NCBI GenBank assembly: GCA_913031435.1
Contig: CAJWFD010000016.1
Span: 1-45,087 of the forward strand
DNA from: an uncultured Cryomorphaceae bacterium
GTDB taxonomy: Bacteria; Bacteroidota; Bacteroidia; Flavobacteriales; Schleiferiaceae
Direction of reading: 5' to 3'
DNA: 45,087 nt
Below the pieces are notes generated by a model. The model worked only from the letters and a program-made list of their open reading frames with translations. It searched no databases and was not told where the DNA came from. Below are positions 2,464 through 7,071 of the stretch, piece after piece. The stretch's first letter is position 1. Each line of letters opens with the position of its first letter. A program made the position numbers and the translations under genes.

Positions 2464-3291
2464 TTAGTCAATCCAGATTTTGACGTTATGGTACCAATTA
2501 GAACCTTCTATTCGGATAATGTACATACCTGAACTCCAACCAAGCGTAGAAACACGTTGCTCAAATTCTGGTGAGGTTTTGGTCATCAGTCTTCCTGCAG
2601 CATTATAAATACTCAGCGGAAGCTCCTGACCTAAGGAGACTTGGAGTAATCCATTAGATTGTGAAATTCTCAAGTCTTTCAAAACGGTCTCCATCACGTC
2701 GAGCAATTCGAATGCTACCGTATGTGAACTGTCCTTATTAGGGTTAAAACTCCAATCCTTAATGGTAAAGCTTTTAGCACTATCAGCGACGTCTAAACGC
2801 AACCAACCGAAACAAGCTGTATCGTCTTTCAGGATACGCAGTCCTAAATACCCATCAGTCACCGGACCAGCCCAATTAGAATTAGGATAAGCAACGCCAT
2901 CCACACGAAACGCTAAATATCCAATATCCGTATTGTTACTAATTCCAGTAAATGTTGCATTAGAATTAAGTGCGGTGCCTGGGACCACATTTTCTACGTA
3001 CGAAAAGCCATTTTGACCTGAACCAACCGCAAGGTTACCTCCAATACTATCTCCAGGGTGAAGAAGTATCGCGTTAACGTTTGACAATTGACCACCTTGA
3101 AGAATATGCTCAATGGTAAAATCTACAATAGTGTCACCATCTAAATCTAATTCAAAAACACCATCAACAACCGTGGTGTCATCGATGTCTGTATATAGAT
3201 ATTGAGTCTGGGCCTGAACTGCAGTTGCTCCTAATAGGGCAGCGGCCGTCGCCATGTATTGCTTGATCTTGTTCGATTGTGTTGTACTCAT
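2464..3291 (-). CDS. Secreted protein with T9SS type A sorting domain
   Basis: This is a 275-residue protein of unknown function that is exported and probably cell-surface attached. An alanine-rich hydrophobic stretch (about residues 12-28, ending AVQAQ) looks like a signal peptide. The middle (30-190) is rich in Asp, Gly, Asn and Val and resembles a beta-sandwich; aspartate runs such as DLDGDTIVDF could bind calcium. The last 75 residues have the por-secretion/T9SS type A pattern: LPLSIYNAAGRLM followed by GWSSGMYIIRIEG and a short basic tail. Known T9SS cargo crosses the outer membrane and loses this domain. The gene starts 15 bp after the phosphodiesterase-sulfotransferase gene ends, so readthrough is likely, but an exact -7 element also sits just before its ATG. 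The substrate or role cannot be told from sequence. Confidence 0.85.
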   Translation of the reverse strand: MSTTQSNKIKQYMATAAALLGATAVQAQTQYLYTDIDDTTVVDGVFELDLDGDTIVDFTIEHILQGGQLSNVNAILLHPGDSIGGNLAVGSGQNGFSYVENVVPGTALNSNATFTGISNNTDIGYLAFRVDGVAYPNSNWAGPVTDGYLGLRILKDDTACFGWLRLDVADSAKSFTIKDWSFNPNKDSSHTVAFELLDVMETVLKDLRISQSNGLLQVSLGQELPLSIYNAAGRLMTKTSPEFEQRVSTLGWSSGMYIIRIEGSNWYHNVKIWID

Positions 3292-3306: not shown

Positions 3307-5820
3307 CTAAAACCTACGCAGCTGGGGTTCAACAACGGCTTTCAATACAGAAATATCAACGGTCTTAGGAGTGTGTTTAGATAACGCTTTAAAAGCTGCT
3401 TGCAAGGATTGACTTAGTTCATTCGTTTCAACCGCATGAATGATGTCTTCGAAATTCAATTCTATCAATATAGCATGTGGATCCATTGAGATTTGTACCT
3501 CAGTTTTTTCTTGGTAATCAAGCCATAGTTGCTGCTCATCCCAACCCAGAGGTGCTGACTCTCTACCACTCATAGAACGCTGACTCTGTAGTAAGGAACC
3601 CAGAGACCTTCGCATGCAGACAATCACCTTTAACCCCCTAGGCAACGGTGCGCTGAGCAGCAATGGTTCGACTATTTTCAGTGCTTTACCTCGCTGTAAA
3701 GACAACCAATTTTCATCCAAGTCCCAGTCCTTCACTTTATTATGCTCAAAGTATCCACGGGCATTAAACTTGTCTTTTTGTCTAATATTATCTGTAACTA
3801 ATCCAACGCCAGCAGCCGCAAGTAGTTGCATTGCCATAGAAGTCCCGCTACGCGGAGGTCCAGAAACTATAAACAATGGAGCTTCACTACCCTGCATCCC
3901 CATCATTTTAAGTTGTAACACCCTTGCTGAATACGATTCACTTGGCATGTTCAGTTTTTTGAAAATCACCGCAAGAGCTCCATGAATATTTGGCTGATGA
4001 TAGCGCAAAGCTGTGCTCTCTAGCGCAGTTTCTAGGGCGTCTTCCCATCTATTTTGTGCCAACTCCAGTTTCAGTCTCAAATTTAAGGTATCTGGAATGT
4101 TGAGTGTTTTACCTGCTAAAAGTTTACCGAGGTCATTTAATCTATCTGCTTTGCTCAATAGCTTGCCCCACAAGACCAATTCATGGCTTTCTTCGGTTTC
4201 AAATAAGCCCTTTGGAATGGACAACGTTGAACCGCGATATATCTGAATAAGGGATTTATAATATTCCCAAATAAACACTTCCGGAAACTCCTGAATGCCG
4301 GACAATAATTTATCTAGCTCTTCATACTGGGCAGATTCCGCAAGTAAGGAAGCTGCCAACTGCTGGTAACGCATGGGAGATTTTTCATCAATATTTAATC
4401 CCGATAAAATCTGCCACGCTCGCTCCGACCTCCCCTCTGCTCTCAAACTTCTAGCGAGATAATAAATGTTTTCAAGTAATCGACCCTCCTTGTTAACCAG
4501 GTGTTTTTCTTCTAGATAACCCAATGCAACAAGTGACTCCAATAAAACAGAGTCACCTTCCACGGATTCATGGCGGTTAGGTGATGCTCCTGTTAACCTT
4601 TCTATCAGGCGATCAGGCTCTTCCATCATGCCAGGAGGAACCAGTCCTTGCATGGAGATAGGCTTGACTAAACCATACATTGCTAATACTACAGGTGCAA
4701 CGTCTAAAAGATTCATGCCGCTTGGTGGCACCTCGATTTTGACACGAGGACCTCTGGCAGCGAATATACCATAGTGCCTATGCTCCAAGGCAGGTGCACC
4801 CGCGTGATTAGGTAATACCGCAAGGCGATCCAATCCATTTTTAAAACCATGGTCACTCATCACAATAGCATGGCCATCTTTATGAAGCCCTTCTAGAAGC
4901 TTTCCTAGGAATAGATCGTGTAGACGGTATGCTGATTCAATTATGAACTTATAGCGATCAAAGTCCTGTGTATTTATACCCTTCAACCTTGGTGGCATGT
5001 ATTTCATACCAAGGTGTTTAAAGTGATCTAAGGCGTCATAGTAGACACTCACATGACCTCCCTTACAATGGTCTAAGGCATAAGTGGCCATGGTGTGCAC
5101 ATTTATGGCGTGCAATGTTATTTTAAGTACACTTCGTACAACATCGTCAGAACTATTTATATCTTGATTTGGAAAGAATGACGCTATTATACTTGGATTC
5201 AAATCTTCAGGCTGCAGAATCAAAGATGCCAGTATTTTTTGATGAGATTCGGGAGAAACACCGTCAGCAATCCACTTTAAATCTTCACTGGCCGCAAGGT
5301 TCGATATTCGTAAACCACCGTATCTACTGTACTCTGCAGGATGAGAAGGCCACCAACCAACTGTAGAAACGGGGACTCCGTTGTCTTCCAAGTATTCCCA
5401 AAAAGTAGGCTGCATTAAAGAACTGCCTCTAACCGCTCGCACCGTCCCATCGTTTATCTCTGTAAATCCATGGATACCATGAGCTGAAGGCCATGTACTT
5501 GTCGCAACAGAAGACCATAACATCGGAGAGATAGGTGGGTCTAATGTGGCTAAATTAGCTTGAACTGATCCATGATTAAATTCTGTAAAAACAGGCATCT
5601 TACCCTCTCTCATCAATGGTTTAATCACCTCCCAATCCGCCGCATCCCAACCCACAAGCAAGGAACTGGCTTTCTCGCCGCGTTCGGAATTCGATAGATC
5701 GGGAACAGGAACACCTTTGATTTGAGCTACATTTCTGTAACCTCCTGCTAAAAAGCCAATGGTATGTTTCGGATTCACTGCCATAGAGTAAAAGTAATTG
5801 CTAAATTTGGCTTTATCCAT
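3307..5820 (-). CDS. Phosphodiesterase/AlkP-superfamily, TPR and sulfotransferase fusion protein
   Basis: This is an 837-residue multidomain protein. Residues about 35-400 form a type I phosphodiesterase/nucleotide pyrophosphatase-like domain of the alkaline phosphatase superfamily. Visible metal and active-site motifs are GWDAADW, PPISPMLWSS with a candidate Ser nucleophile, HGIHGFTE and SDHGFKNG. Residues about 430-630 are helical and TPR-like. From about 645 to the end is a sulfotransferase fold: the PAPS 5'-phosphosulfate loop reads VSGPPRSGTSMAM and the 3'-phosphate element is in CMRRSLGSLLQSQRS. There is no signal peptide. I chose the ATG at 5820; the frame extends to a TTG at 5841, which would overlap the divergent gene, and an ATG at 5784 is also possible. 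Phosphohydrolases of this type can occur beside sulfotransferases, but their substrate is not known to me. A role in polysaccharide or lipid modification is inference. Confidence 0.8.
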   Translation of the reverse strand: MDKAKFSNYFYSMAVNPKHTIGFLAGGYRNVAQIKGVPVPDLSNSERGEKASSLLVGWDAADWEVIKPLMREGKMPVFTEFNHGSVQANLATLDPPISPMLWSSVATSTWPSAHGIHGFTEINDGTVRAVRGSSLMQPTFWEYLEDNGVPVSTVGWWPSHPAEYSRYGGLRISNLAASEDLKWIADGVSPESHQKILASLILQPEDLNPSIIASFFPNQDINSSDDVVRSVLKITLHAINVHTMATYALDHCKGGHVSVYYDALDHFKHLGMKYMPPRLKGINTQDFDRYKFIIESAYRLHDLFLGKLLEGLHKDGHAIVMSDHGFKNGLDRLAVLPNHAGAPALEHRHYGIFAARGPRVKIEVPPSGMNLLDVAPVVLAMYGLVKPISMQGLVPPGMMEEPDRLIERLTGASPNRHESVEGDSVLLESLVALGYLEEKHLVNKEGRLLENIYYLARSLRAEGRSERAWQILSGLNIDEKSPMRYQQLAASLLAESAQYEELDKLLSGIQEFPEVFIWEYYKSLIQIYRGSTLSIPKGLFETEESHELVLWGKLLSKADRLNDLGKLLAGKTLNIPDTLNLRLKLELAQNRWEDALETALESTALRYHQPNIHGALAVIFKKLNMPSESYSARVLQLKMMGMQGSEAPLFIVSGPPRSGTSMAMQLLAAAGVGLVTDNIRQKDKFNARGYFEHNKVKDWDLDENWLSLQRGKALKIVEPLLLSAPLPRGLKVIVCMRRSLGSLLQSQRSMSGRESAPLGWDEQQLWLDYQEKTEVQISMDPHAILIELNFEDIIHAVETNELSQSLQAAFKALSKHTPKTVDISVLKAVVEPQLRRF
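5802..5809 (+). promoter_or_regulatory. -7 element for the permease gene
   Basis: TAAATTTG is an exact match to TAnnTTTG, 23 bases before the permease ATG. It lies inside the 5' end of the divergent phosphodiesterase-sulfotransferase gene if that gene starts at 5820. I see no matching TTG at the -33 position. Confidence 0.35.
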
Positions 5821-5832
5821 AACTATCAATGA

Positions 5833-7071
5833 ATGAACCAACGCGCTTTTAAAGAAACGATATCCCTGTCATGGACGGCCATAAAGGCCTCTCCATTACG
5901 AACCGTGCTGACCTCGCTAATTATTTCTTTTGGCATAATGGCATTAGTAGGTATTTTGAGCGCTACAGACGCTCTTAAACAGAGTTTAGAGAGTAATTTT
6001 ACCTCACTTGGTGCAAACACCTTAACTATTCGCAATTCTCAAGGAGGCTTTTTCGTGAACAACGCGGATTATAGACAGAATCCGGAAATCACGTATCGAG
6101 AGGCTTTGGCATTTAAAAAGCGAATGGATTATCCTGGTTCAAAAACTAGCTTAACCTACATAGCCTCTCGTACTGCGAAATTGTCGAATGATAATGTATC
6201 TACGAATCCTAATACACAAATTGTTGCCACGGATGAAAATTACATGTATACCGGTGGTTTTGAATTAGCTGAGGGAAGAAACTTCAATCTAGATGATGTG
6301 TATTCTGGAAGAAATTACACCATTTTAGGGAGTGAAACGAAAACCACACTCTTCGATCAGGAAAGCGCTGTAGGTAAAAATATACGAATCAAAGGCAAGC
6401 CTTATTTAGTCGTTGGTGTGTTAGCAGAGAAAGGGTCTTCAGGAATGTTCTCAGGAGATCGAGGTGCTTGGGTAACCATGAATTATGCTCGGGCGAATTT
6501 TTCAGGAGGTCAACCAAATTATATTCTAAGTATCAATGCACCCAACGCAGAGACGCTAGAGGCTGTTCAGGGGCAAAGCTTTTCTTTGATGAGGAGTGTT
6601 CGGAAATTGGTACCAAAAGAACGAGATAATTTCAGTATCACACGAAGTGATAATGTCGCAAAAAGTCTAATCGAAAATTTAGACATGGTCACCTCAGGCG
6701 CATTTATCATTGGATCAATAACCCTTTTAGGCGCATCCATTGCATTAATGAATATCATGTTAGTCAGTGTGACGGAGCGTACCAAGGAAATAGGTACACG
6801 TAAAGCTATAGGTGCAACAAAAAGAGCCATCAGCGCACAATTCTTAGGTGAAGCGGTAATGATTACCCAACTAGGCGGATGGACCGGAATCATCTTTGGA
6901 ATAATTATAGGAAACGTAGTCGCTAATCAAATAGGCGGTAACTTTTTCATTCCTTGGACTTGGATTACCGTGGCGTTCTTTATCTCTGTAGGAGTGGGTA
7001 TTCTCGCAGGATGGTACCCGGCCAAGAAAGCCGCGGACCTAGATCCTGTCGAGGCACTTCGTTACGAATAA
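5833..7071 (+). CDS. ABC transporter permease, MacB/FtsX type
   Basis: This is a 412-residue inner-membrane protein with the MacB/FtsX layout. There is one membrane helix near residues 20-45 (TSLIISFGIMALVGIL), a long periplasmic MacB-PCD-like domain (50-280), and three C-terminal helices (290-400) that include the family stretch SVTERTKEIGTRKAIGA. Proteins of this type work with an ATPase in mechanotransmission, lipoprotein or peptide export rather than import. No ATPase partner gene is adjacent. The ATG at 5833 lies only 12 bp from the divergent start at 5820. The gene ends at a strong two-way terminator. The substrate is unknown. Confidence 0.9.
   Translation: MNQRAFKETISLSWTAIKASPLRTVLTSLIISFGIMALVGILSATDALKQSLESNFTSLGANTLTIRNSQGGFFVNNADYRQNPEITYREALAFKKRMDYPGSKTSLTYIASRTAKLSNDNVSTNPNTQIVATDENYMYTGGFELAEGRNFNLDDVYSGRNYTILGSETKTTLFDQESAVGKNIRIKGKPYLVVGVLAEKGSSGMFSGDRGAWVTMNYARANFSGGQPNYILSINAPNAETLEAVQGQSFSLMRSVRKLVPKERDNFSITRSDNVAKSLIENLDMVTSGAFIIGSITLLGASIALMNIMLVSVTERTKEIGTRKAIGATKRAISAQFLGEAVMITQLGGWTGIIFGIIIGNVVANQIGGNFFIPWTWITVAFFISVGVGILAGWYPAKKAADLDPVEALRYE

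Follow-up and report, generated by a model that had tools for sequence, protein, structure and literature searches.

Among the closest described systems is the RaxST–RaxX pair of Xanthomonas, in which a sulfotransferase that uses 3'-phosphoadenosine 5'-phosphosulfate (PAPS) is likewise encoded beside the gene of a secreted precursor, a peptide that becomes sulfated on tyrosine. Here we describe a locus in a 45,087-nucleotide stretch of DNA from an uncultured Cryomorphaceae bacterium (contig CAJWFD010000016.1; the whole stretch is referred to below as the window) in which a PAPS-type sulfotransferase is, unlike RaxST, fused to an alkaline phosphatase (AlkP)-superfamily hydrolase and TPR-like repeats, and in which the adjoining gene encodes a partner that is not a peptide but a larger surface protein, with a tail typical of either the type IX secretion system (T9SS) or PEP-CTERM proteins; any sulfation in the present system is predicted from the genes. 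We propose, with a probability of about one half, that the enzyme is a dedicated cytosolic bifunctional maturation enzyme, serving a single secreted surface protein or a small number of them encoded alongside it. That enzyme and partner are functionally paired is highly probable, because their adjacency persists across phyla and in three gene orders, and because a special leader of the partner tracks the enzyme. The parts of the enzyme are known families, while neither the combination nor the partner was found described in the literature searched, which consisted of titles and the starts of abstracts and included few subscription journals and preprints; the main result of this work is the pairing of the enzyme with a secreted protein that carries a distinctive leader.

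Each part can be set beside better-known proteins. The type I phosphodiesterases of PF01663 (Xac NPP, ENPP) have the fold and the two-metal ligand set in common with the window enzyme, which differs from them in showing no signal or long hydrophobic segment, in carrying Ser at the presumed nucleophile position and in its fused TPR and sulfotransferase regions. In profile alignments the sulfotransferase shares the 5'-phosphosulfate loop with SULT1A1 and TPST2 and the R-x7-S 3'-phosphate motif with SULT1A1, but it is compact, at about 190 residues, and the SULT His is replaced in conservation by the glutamate of a GY[FY]E motif. The tails of most partner-type proteins scanned match those of PEP-CTERM and T9SS type A surface proteins; unlike these, the partner has a core outside any Pfam family, and its distinctive leader goes with a single enzyme.

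The evidence for pairing comes from gene neighbourhoods. Clustering of neighbouring genes with BLAST found one family at 20 of 26 far loci (L033–L058), at 11 of 11 genus loci and at 10 of 10 family loci, and a six-frame search added partners at L048 and L054, bringing the far loci to 22 of 26. Left out of the 26 were L059, a short partial match, and L031 and L032, which are the genus members G020 and G023, both with a partner. The far loci without a counted partner are L041 and L055, which lie at contig ends, L053, where a neighbour has the same kind of leader and a body under the profile threshold, and L052. No other neighbour cluster was seen at more than four far loci, not all clusters being annotated. 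In a set of 100 sampled relatives that includes own genome (labels G000–G024 denote the 25 genus members), the partner adjoins the enzyme match in 42 of the 51 genomes with the enzyme, according to a tally of match coordinates, and a contig end truncates the enzyme, or the side on which the partner would lie, in G002, G003, G004, G007 and G039. At E <= 1e-3 a partner was detected in 47 of these 51 genomes and in 12 of the 49 enzyme-less ones. Three gene orders occur: the enzyme precedes the partner on the same strand in the window's family, the partner precedes the enzyme, again on one strand, at most loci of the Planctomycetes–Verrucomicrobia–Chlamydiae (PVC) group, and the two genes diverge in Flavobacteriaceae. 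Loci L033, L035, L037 and L051 carry two or three partner copies each. Two of the far loci come from culturable relatives, L040 from Psychroserpens damuponensis JCM 17632 and L058 from Hanstruepera neustonica JCM 19743. At later verrucomicrobial loci (L212–L233) a partner homologue lies within 3 kb in 13 of 22 cases, or 11 of 20 without L213 and L232, which repeat the contigs of L048 and L049. Several of these partners have RLxxY leaders too divergent for the leader profile; the leader expression is carried by 10 of the 726 open reading frames (ORFs) of at least 120 residues at these loci, and nine of the ten are such partners.

The partner starts with a leader, continues in a beta-rich core and finishes in a sorting tail (Table 1). 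The leader follows the pattern [RK][LW]xxYxxxAxA, is weakly hydrophobic and has its Tyr at the same position in 32 of 34 aligned partners, the exceptions being L051 and the L035 copy that adjoins a split enzyme. The RaxX leader is cleaved at a Gly-Gly pair, with an exporter of the RaxAB type encoded alongside; here most leaders have AxAQ, AxGQ or AEA at their ends, GG is absent from that place, and no exporter family recurs by the far loci, where not all clusters are annotated. A Tyr just past the cleavage site (the Y in YTDI) was rejected as a sulfation site, since several partners have F, W, I or H at this position. With tails removed and leaders mostly removed, the cores from Bacteroidota (20 sequences, alignment A3) and from PVC bacteria (14 sequences, A4) matched each other in hhalign at E 4e-23, and no Pfam family was found for the core in six partners scanned. 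The tail of the window partner scores 32.3 bits against TIGR04183 (cut-off 23) and resembles the T9SS C-terminal domain folds 8gl8, 8gl6 and RgpB with Z about 9; the Foldseek and VIA-align rows for the partner mostly cover this tail. PEP-CTERM tails end the partners of L035, L042 and L046, and three of the four partner-type proteins scanned have tails above the TIGR02595 or TIGR04183 cut-off. One verrucomicrobial partner (L214:8058-8861, minus strand) has a KNKNKNK stretch straight after its leader.

It is the leader that tracks the enzyme. A leader-only profile of 28 positions matched at E <= 1e-3 in 28 of 33 enzyme genomes, in each case on the partner gene (a remnant by a contig end in G007), and in none of 28 enzyme-less genomes. 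Because many rows of the profile were drawn from the genomes searched (both leader profiles, A7 and A8, contain such rows), so that those positives arise by construction, its absence from the enzyme-less genomes is the informative half of the result. In the phylum-wide search the profile matched, at the same threshold, own genome only, and the other enzyme genome, G177, gave no match. Seven family members carry a partner without the enzyme (G025, G034, G037, G043, G048, G052 and G056); an enzyme profile search of these genomes returned only TPR-region matches and two short stray ones. The best 12-residue Kyte-Doolittle mean of the leader ranges from 1.06 to 1.85 in 41 partners of enzyme genomes, and six of the seven enzyme-less partners have at the leader position an ordinary hydrophobic signal peptide, with means of 1.92–2.65. 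A loose expression for the leader Tyr was discarded as a discriminator in favour of profile and hydrophobicity, as it found Y in four of the seven enzyme-less partners; Tyr alone does not discriminate because it also occurs in enzyme-less partners with ordinary signal peptides. In G034, G048 and G056 (loci L095, L098 and L100) the enzyme is missing and the partner has kept its place between a gene of MacB size and one of aconitase size, which looks like loss of the enzyme in place. A leader profile made for PVC bacteria matched at E <= 0.01 in 5 of 97 genomes of one verrucomicrobial order, and the enzyme adjoins the leader gene in all five; three of the five had supplied profile rows, G443 is the genome of L048, which is not in the profile, and only G417 was wholly unseen. 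In this order the enzyme is more widespread than the PVC leader profile.

The three-domain chain that an earlier note had read at 3307-5820 from the sequence alone proved to be an intact gene. Its ORF occupies 3307-5841 on the minus strand, with the first ATG at 5820 and the stop at 3307-3309, and it is the single match in own genome (a 1.83 Mb assembly, 90.6% complete). The same note had raised a frameshift or an assembly join of separate genes, and the latter is ruled out because a single open frame holds the complete chain in 17 further genus members. Five of the 17 have a match that reaches a few residues further upstream, across a TAA that precedes an open frame of 827 residues. The gene is divided between two contigs in G010 and lies in two frames in G019. 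Its nearest named relative, from uncultured Cryomorphaceae bacterium FRAM18_bin126, is 89% identical over residues 2-837. An NCBIfam scan of the window enzyme gave no family match. The AlphaFold model has a mean predicted local distance difference test (pLDDT) score of 84 and a predicted template modelling score (pTM) of 0.74. Residues 15-48 form an N-terminal extension ahead of the hydrolase domain, helical in the model (pLDDT about 90 for residues 21-40), with 52% mean identity across 18 genus members and none of six family members aligning there; judged by this conservation, it is genus-specific. Many family proteins begin a few residues ahead of the first hydrolase strand, and a 19-residue Kyte-Doolittle scan, with a highest mean of 1.5, showed neither a membrane segment nor a long hydrophobic stretch in the enzyme; for these reasons we take it to be cytosolic.

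The hydrolase region of the window enzyme matches PF01663 at 6e-18 (66 bits, cut-off 23), and the metal motifs that had looked intact in the single sequence hold across the family: D59, S98, D265, H269, D323, H324 and H347 are identical in 49 of 50 aligned proteins, the exception being L051, with E at position 265. By analogy with the superfamily we take these residues to be the three Asp and three His ligands of two metals and the Thr/Ser nucleophile. Structure matches to this part of the enzyme (Z 21–24) are ENPP, Xac NPP, PafA and sulfatase folds, the closest being ENPP1 and ENPP3 (Z about 24) and Xac NPP (Z 23.3), with ENPP7 and PafA at Z 23–24. In the TPR region the Pfam matches of the window enzyme are below threshold, the split relative L035 exceeds the cut-off, and helix pairs are visible in the predicted model. 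TPR repeats often bind peptides.

A PAPS-binding sulfotransferase, as the earlier note had it, is borne out by the family. Sulfotransfer_3 matches all 25 members of the sulfotransferase alignment (A10) at E <= 0.01, the best at 9e-15, and the separate sulfotransferase of L054 exceeds the Pfam cut-off with 46.9 bits. Compared with the Protein Data Bank (PDB), the A10 profile found SULT1A1 at 4e-7 and TPST2 at 2e-5. The PRSGTS loop is invariant throughout A10 and in all 19 genus members aligned; the R-x7-S motif, the GY.E region and one Lys are invariant across the 25, and the PAPS motifs are present in every aligned protein that reaches that region. The catalytic His of SULT enzymes is not kept, the GY[FY]E glutamate being invariant instead, and E692 is no more than a candidate for the catalytic base. 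In the structure-search lists for the enzyme the rows shown are filled by the AlkP domain. Viral contigs from IMG/VR (L084–L091) carry standalone sulfotransferases of the same subfamily; their fetched stretches held neither an AlkP-TPR nor a partner profile match, one pattern-based scan of IMG/VR found no full-length enzyme, and PHROGs gave no family match for three sulfotransferases scanned, that of L086 included.

The fusion is real and recurs, and this set of domains in one chain is no great surprise. Of the relatives sample, the enzyme is carried by 24 of 25 genomes in the genus, by 27 of the 36 from elsewhere in the family and by none of the 39 from other families of the order; the same domain order also occurs in Flavobacteriaceae, Verrucomicrobia, Phycisphaerae and Planctomycetaceae. 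Phylum-wide, two of 296 genomes (own genome and G177) yielded the complete chain, a figure that may be low with three candidates scored per genome. In the verrucomicrobial order, where nine candidates were scored per genome, it was found in 20 of the 97 genomes, a count read from the match list that may also be low; the enzyme profile matched 26 of the 97 at E <= 1e-40, some with the sulfotransferase or AlkP part only. The sulfotransferase extension, once called less usual, is therefore rare across the phylum but more frequent among relatives and in that order. In some Verrucomicrobia and relatives (L035, L053, L054 and L055) the AlkP-TPR part and a sulfotransferase of ~190-230 residues are two adjoining genes. 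Because several phyla keep the domains fused in this order and the split genes adjoin, hydrolase and sulfotransferase probably serve one process, and to this extent the earlier suggestion of joint action stands.

Several observations weigh against a pair that matures a surface protein by sulfation. L052 has the enzyme, and no partner was found in its fetched stretch; in G028, G029, G044 and G060 the partner lies on another contig than the enzyme; and at 9 of the 22 later loci no partner was found within 3 kb, these being L219 and L220, which have almost no upstream DNA, L222–L225, whose divergent enzymes (602–638 bits) may serve another target, and L226, L229 and L230, which are unexplained. 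In G177 the partner body adjoins the enzyme without a Tyr leader, G052 keeps the leader (hydrophobicity 1.38) with the enzyme match absent, and three partners that lack the enzyme and begin with an ordinary signal peptide have a Tyr near the leader position; the enzyme-less set comes from few lineages, and the counts are not corrected for the tree. The sulfotransferase of the window enzyme, taken alone, stays below the Sulfotransfer_3 cut-off (E 0.013, 16.2 bits against 27). The donor is a further difficulty. A kinase for adenosine 5'-phosphosulfate (APS kinase, PF01583) is present in six of the 25 genus genomes and was not found in own genome and 18 more, among them G009 and G010 (100% and 99% complete). 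PF01507 is present in 17 of the 25 and was not found in own genome. Because neither was found there, PAPS may not be made in own genome, although at 90.6% completeness either gene may lie in a missing stretch.

Five of the six genus genomes with APS kinase have a PF01507 match within 1 kb of it, which suggests that sulfate activation was gained or lost as a block within the genus. APS kinase is lacking in 15 of the 19 aligned genus members, and 13 of these 15 keep all 22 sulfotransferase residues that the family alignment marks as invariant, G011 and G012 having two or three changes. The ratio of sulfotransferase to AlkP divergence is 1.09 in the members without the kinase and 1.29 in the four with it. 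Since the invariant residues are kept and the domain diverges about as fast as the AlkP domain, its sequence is under constraint for something in these genomes, which may be PAPS obtained from another source, a different 3'-phosphoadenosine ligand or the binding of a peptide. That the domain is kept intact in genomes in which PAPS synthesis was not found is a puzzle.

In the proposed maturation pathway, the partner precursor is made with its special leader, recognizable from the sequence, and the TPR region would bind this leader ahead of export. The sulfotransferase, whose family and motifs are established, might then move a sulfuryl group from a 3'-phosphoadenosine donor onto the precursor, perhaps onto the near-invariant leader Tyr; sulfation is the likeliest chemistry, although we hold it only tentatively. 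In the same cycle the AlkP domain, with its complete ligand set, would hydrolyse an ester, so that a nucleotide product is cleared, a blocking group removed or the modification reversed. Cleavage of the leader would follow, and the protein would be carried to the surface, through T9SS in Bacteroidota and through PEP-CTERM/exosortase in Verrucomicrobia and Planctomycetes, as the sorting signals of the members scanned indicate. A bolder version, in which the sulfuryl group is put on the leader Tyr and taken off again by the enzyme's own AlkP domain, timing or licensing export, is a long shot; if true, secretion would be controlled by signal-peptide sulfation.

Other readings assign the domains differently. 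The sulfotransferase may no longer transfer sulfate in the genus and may serve as a regulatory module that binds 3'-phosphoadenosine or a peptide, leaving AlkP as the sole chemistry. The many genus genomes in which APS kinase was not found, the nearly complete ones included, and the same result for PF01507 in own genome speak for this, but the 22 residues unchanged in most members without the kinase and the Pfam score of the L054 protein speak against it, and we regard it as rather unlikely. A similarly modest chance attaches to AlkP as a nucleotide hydrolase that solely clears PAPS, or the 3'-phosphoadenosine 5'-phosphate (PAP) left from it, for the fused sulfotransferase: its closest folds are nucleotide pyrophosphatases/phosphodiesterases (NPPs), yet PafA and sulfatases score nearly equally, NPPs cut phosphodiester or pyrophosphate bonds and not 3'-monoesters, and AlkP is kept where PAPS synthesis was not found. 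A glycan on the partner or displayed with it, which the sulfotransferase would sulfate and AlkP trim of phosphate or sulfate esters, would agree with the likeness of the AlkP fold to carbohydrate sulfatases and with the PEP-CTERM route, classically tied to exopolysaccharide. The earlier note had considered such a substrate; however, just one neighbour family recurs from phylum to phylum, and it encodes a secreted protein (no other exceeds four far loci, among clusters of which not all are annotated), what goes with the enzyme is a leader on a protein, and the enzyme shows no long hydrophobic segment, so that we find a glycan improbable.

Enzyme and partner could also be mere operon neighbours of unrelated function. 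The twelve enzyme-less relatives with a partner fit this idea, as does the MacB/FtsX permease gene, likewise a stable neighbour within the family (11 of 11 genus and 8 of 10 family loci). The permease was set aside as a part of the system, a gene judged similar by eye staying by the partner in G048, where the enzyme is missing. The adjacency of enzyme and partner, in contrast, holds across phyla and in three gene orders while other neighbours change, and the leader tracks the enzyme, which makes an accidental association very improbable.

Table 1. Features of the enzyme–partner locus in the window
Feature	Position	Strand	Evidence
AlkP-TPR-sulfotransferase fusion enzyme, 837 aa	3307..5820	minus	ORF and translation, same-order homologues, model
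N-terminal helical extension, residues 15-48	5677..5778	minus	genus conservation and model
AlkP-superfamily hydrolase domain, residues 50-410	4591..5673	minus	PF01663, fold matches, conserved residues
TPR-like helical repeats, residues 423-640	3901..4554	minus	weak TPR matches and model helix pairs
PAPS-type sulfotransferase domain, residues 646-837	3310..3885	minus	A10 profile against PDB, Pfam on 25 members
5'-phosphosulfate loop GPPRSGTS, residues 654-661	3838..3861	minus	PRSGTS invariance
3'-phosphate motif R738-x7-S746	3583..3609	minus	invariant in A10, aligned to SULT1A1 R and S
Partner, small secreted surface protein, 275 aa	2464..3291	minus	15 bases downstream of enzyme on the same strand; neighbour clustering
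Partner leader, KIKQYMATAAALLGATAVQAQ type	3208..3291	minus	Tyr alignment and leader-only profile searches
Partner beta-rich core, GYLGLR..YGW.R.D..IKD motif	2731..3204	minus	A1-A4 alignments
Partner type A T9SS sorting domain	2467..2679	minus	TIGR04183 and C-terminal domain folds
MacB/FtsX permease	5833..7071	plus	PF12704 and PF02687

Few cases of bacterial protein sulfation are known. If the maturation reading is true, several phyla would have in common an undescribed maturation system: a precursor marked by its leader is acted on by a cytosolic hydrolase-sulfotransferase, whichever sorting route that precursor takes to the surface, and the locus would offer concrete, testable genes both for bacterial protein sulfation and for the question of why some export leaders stay conserved.

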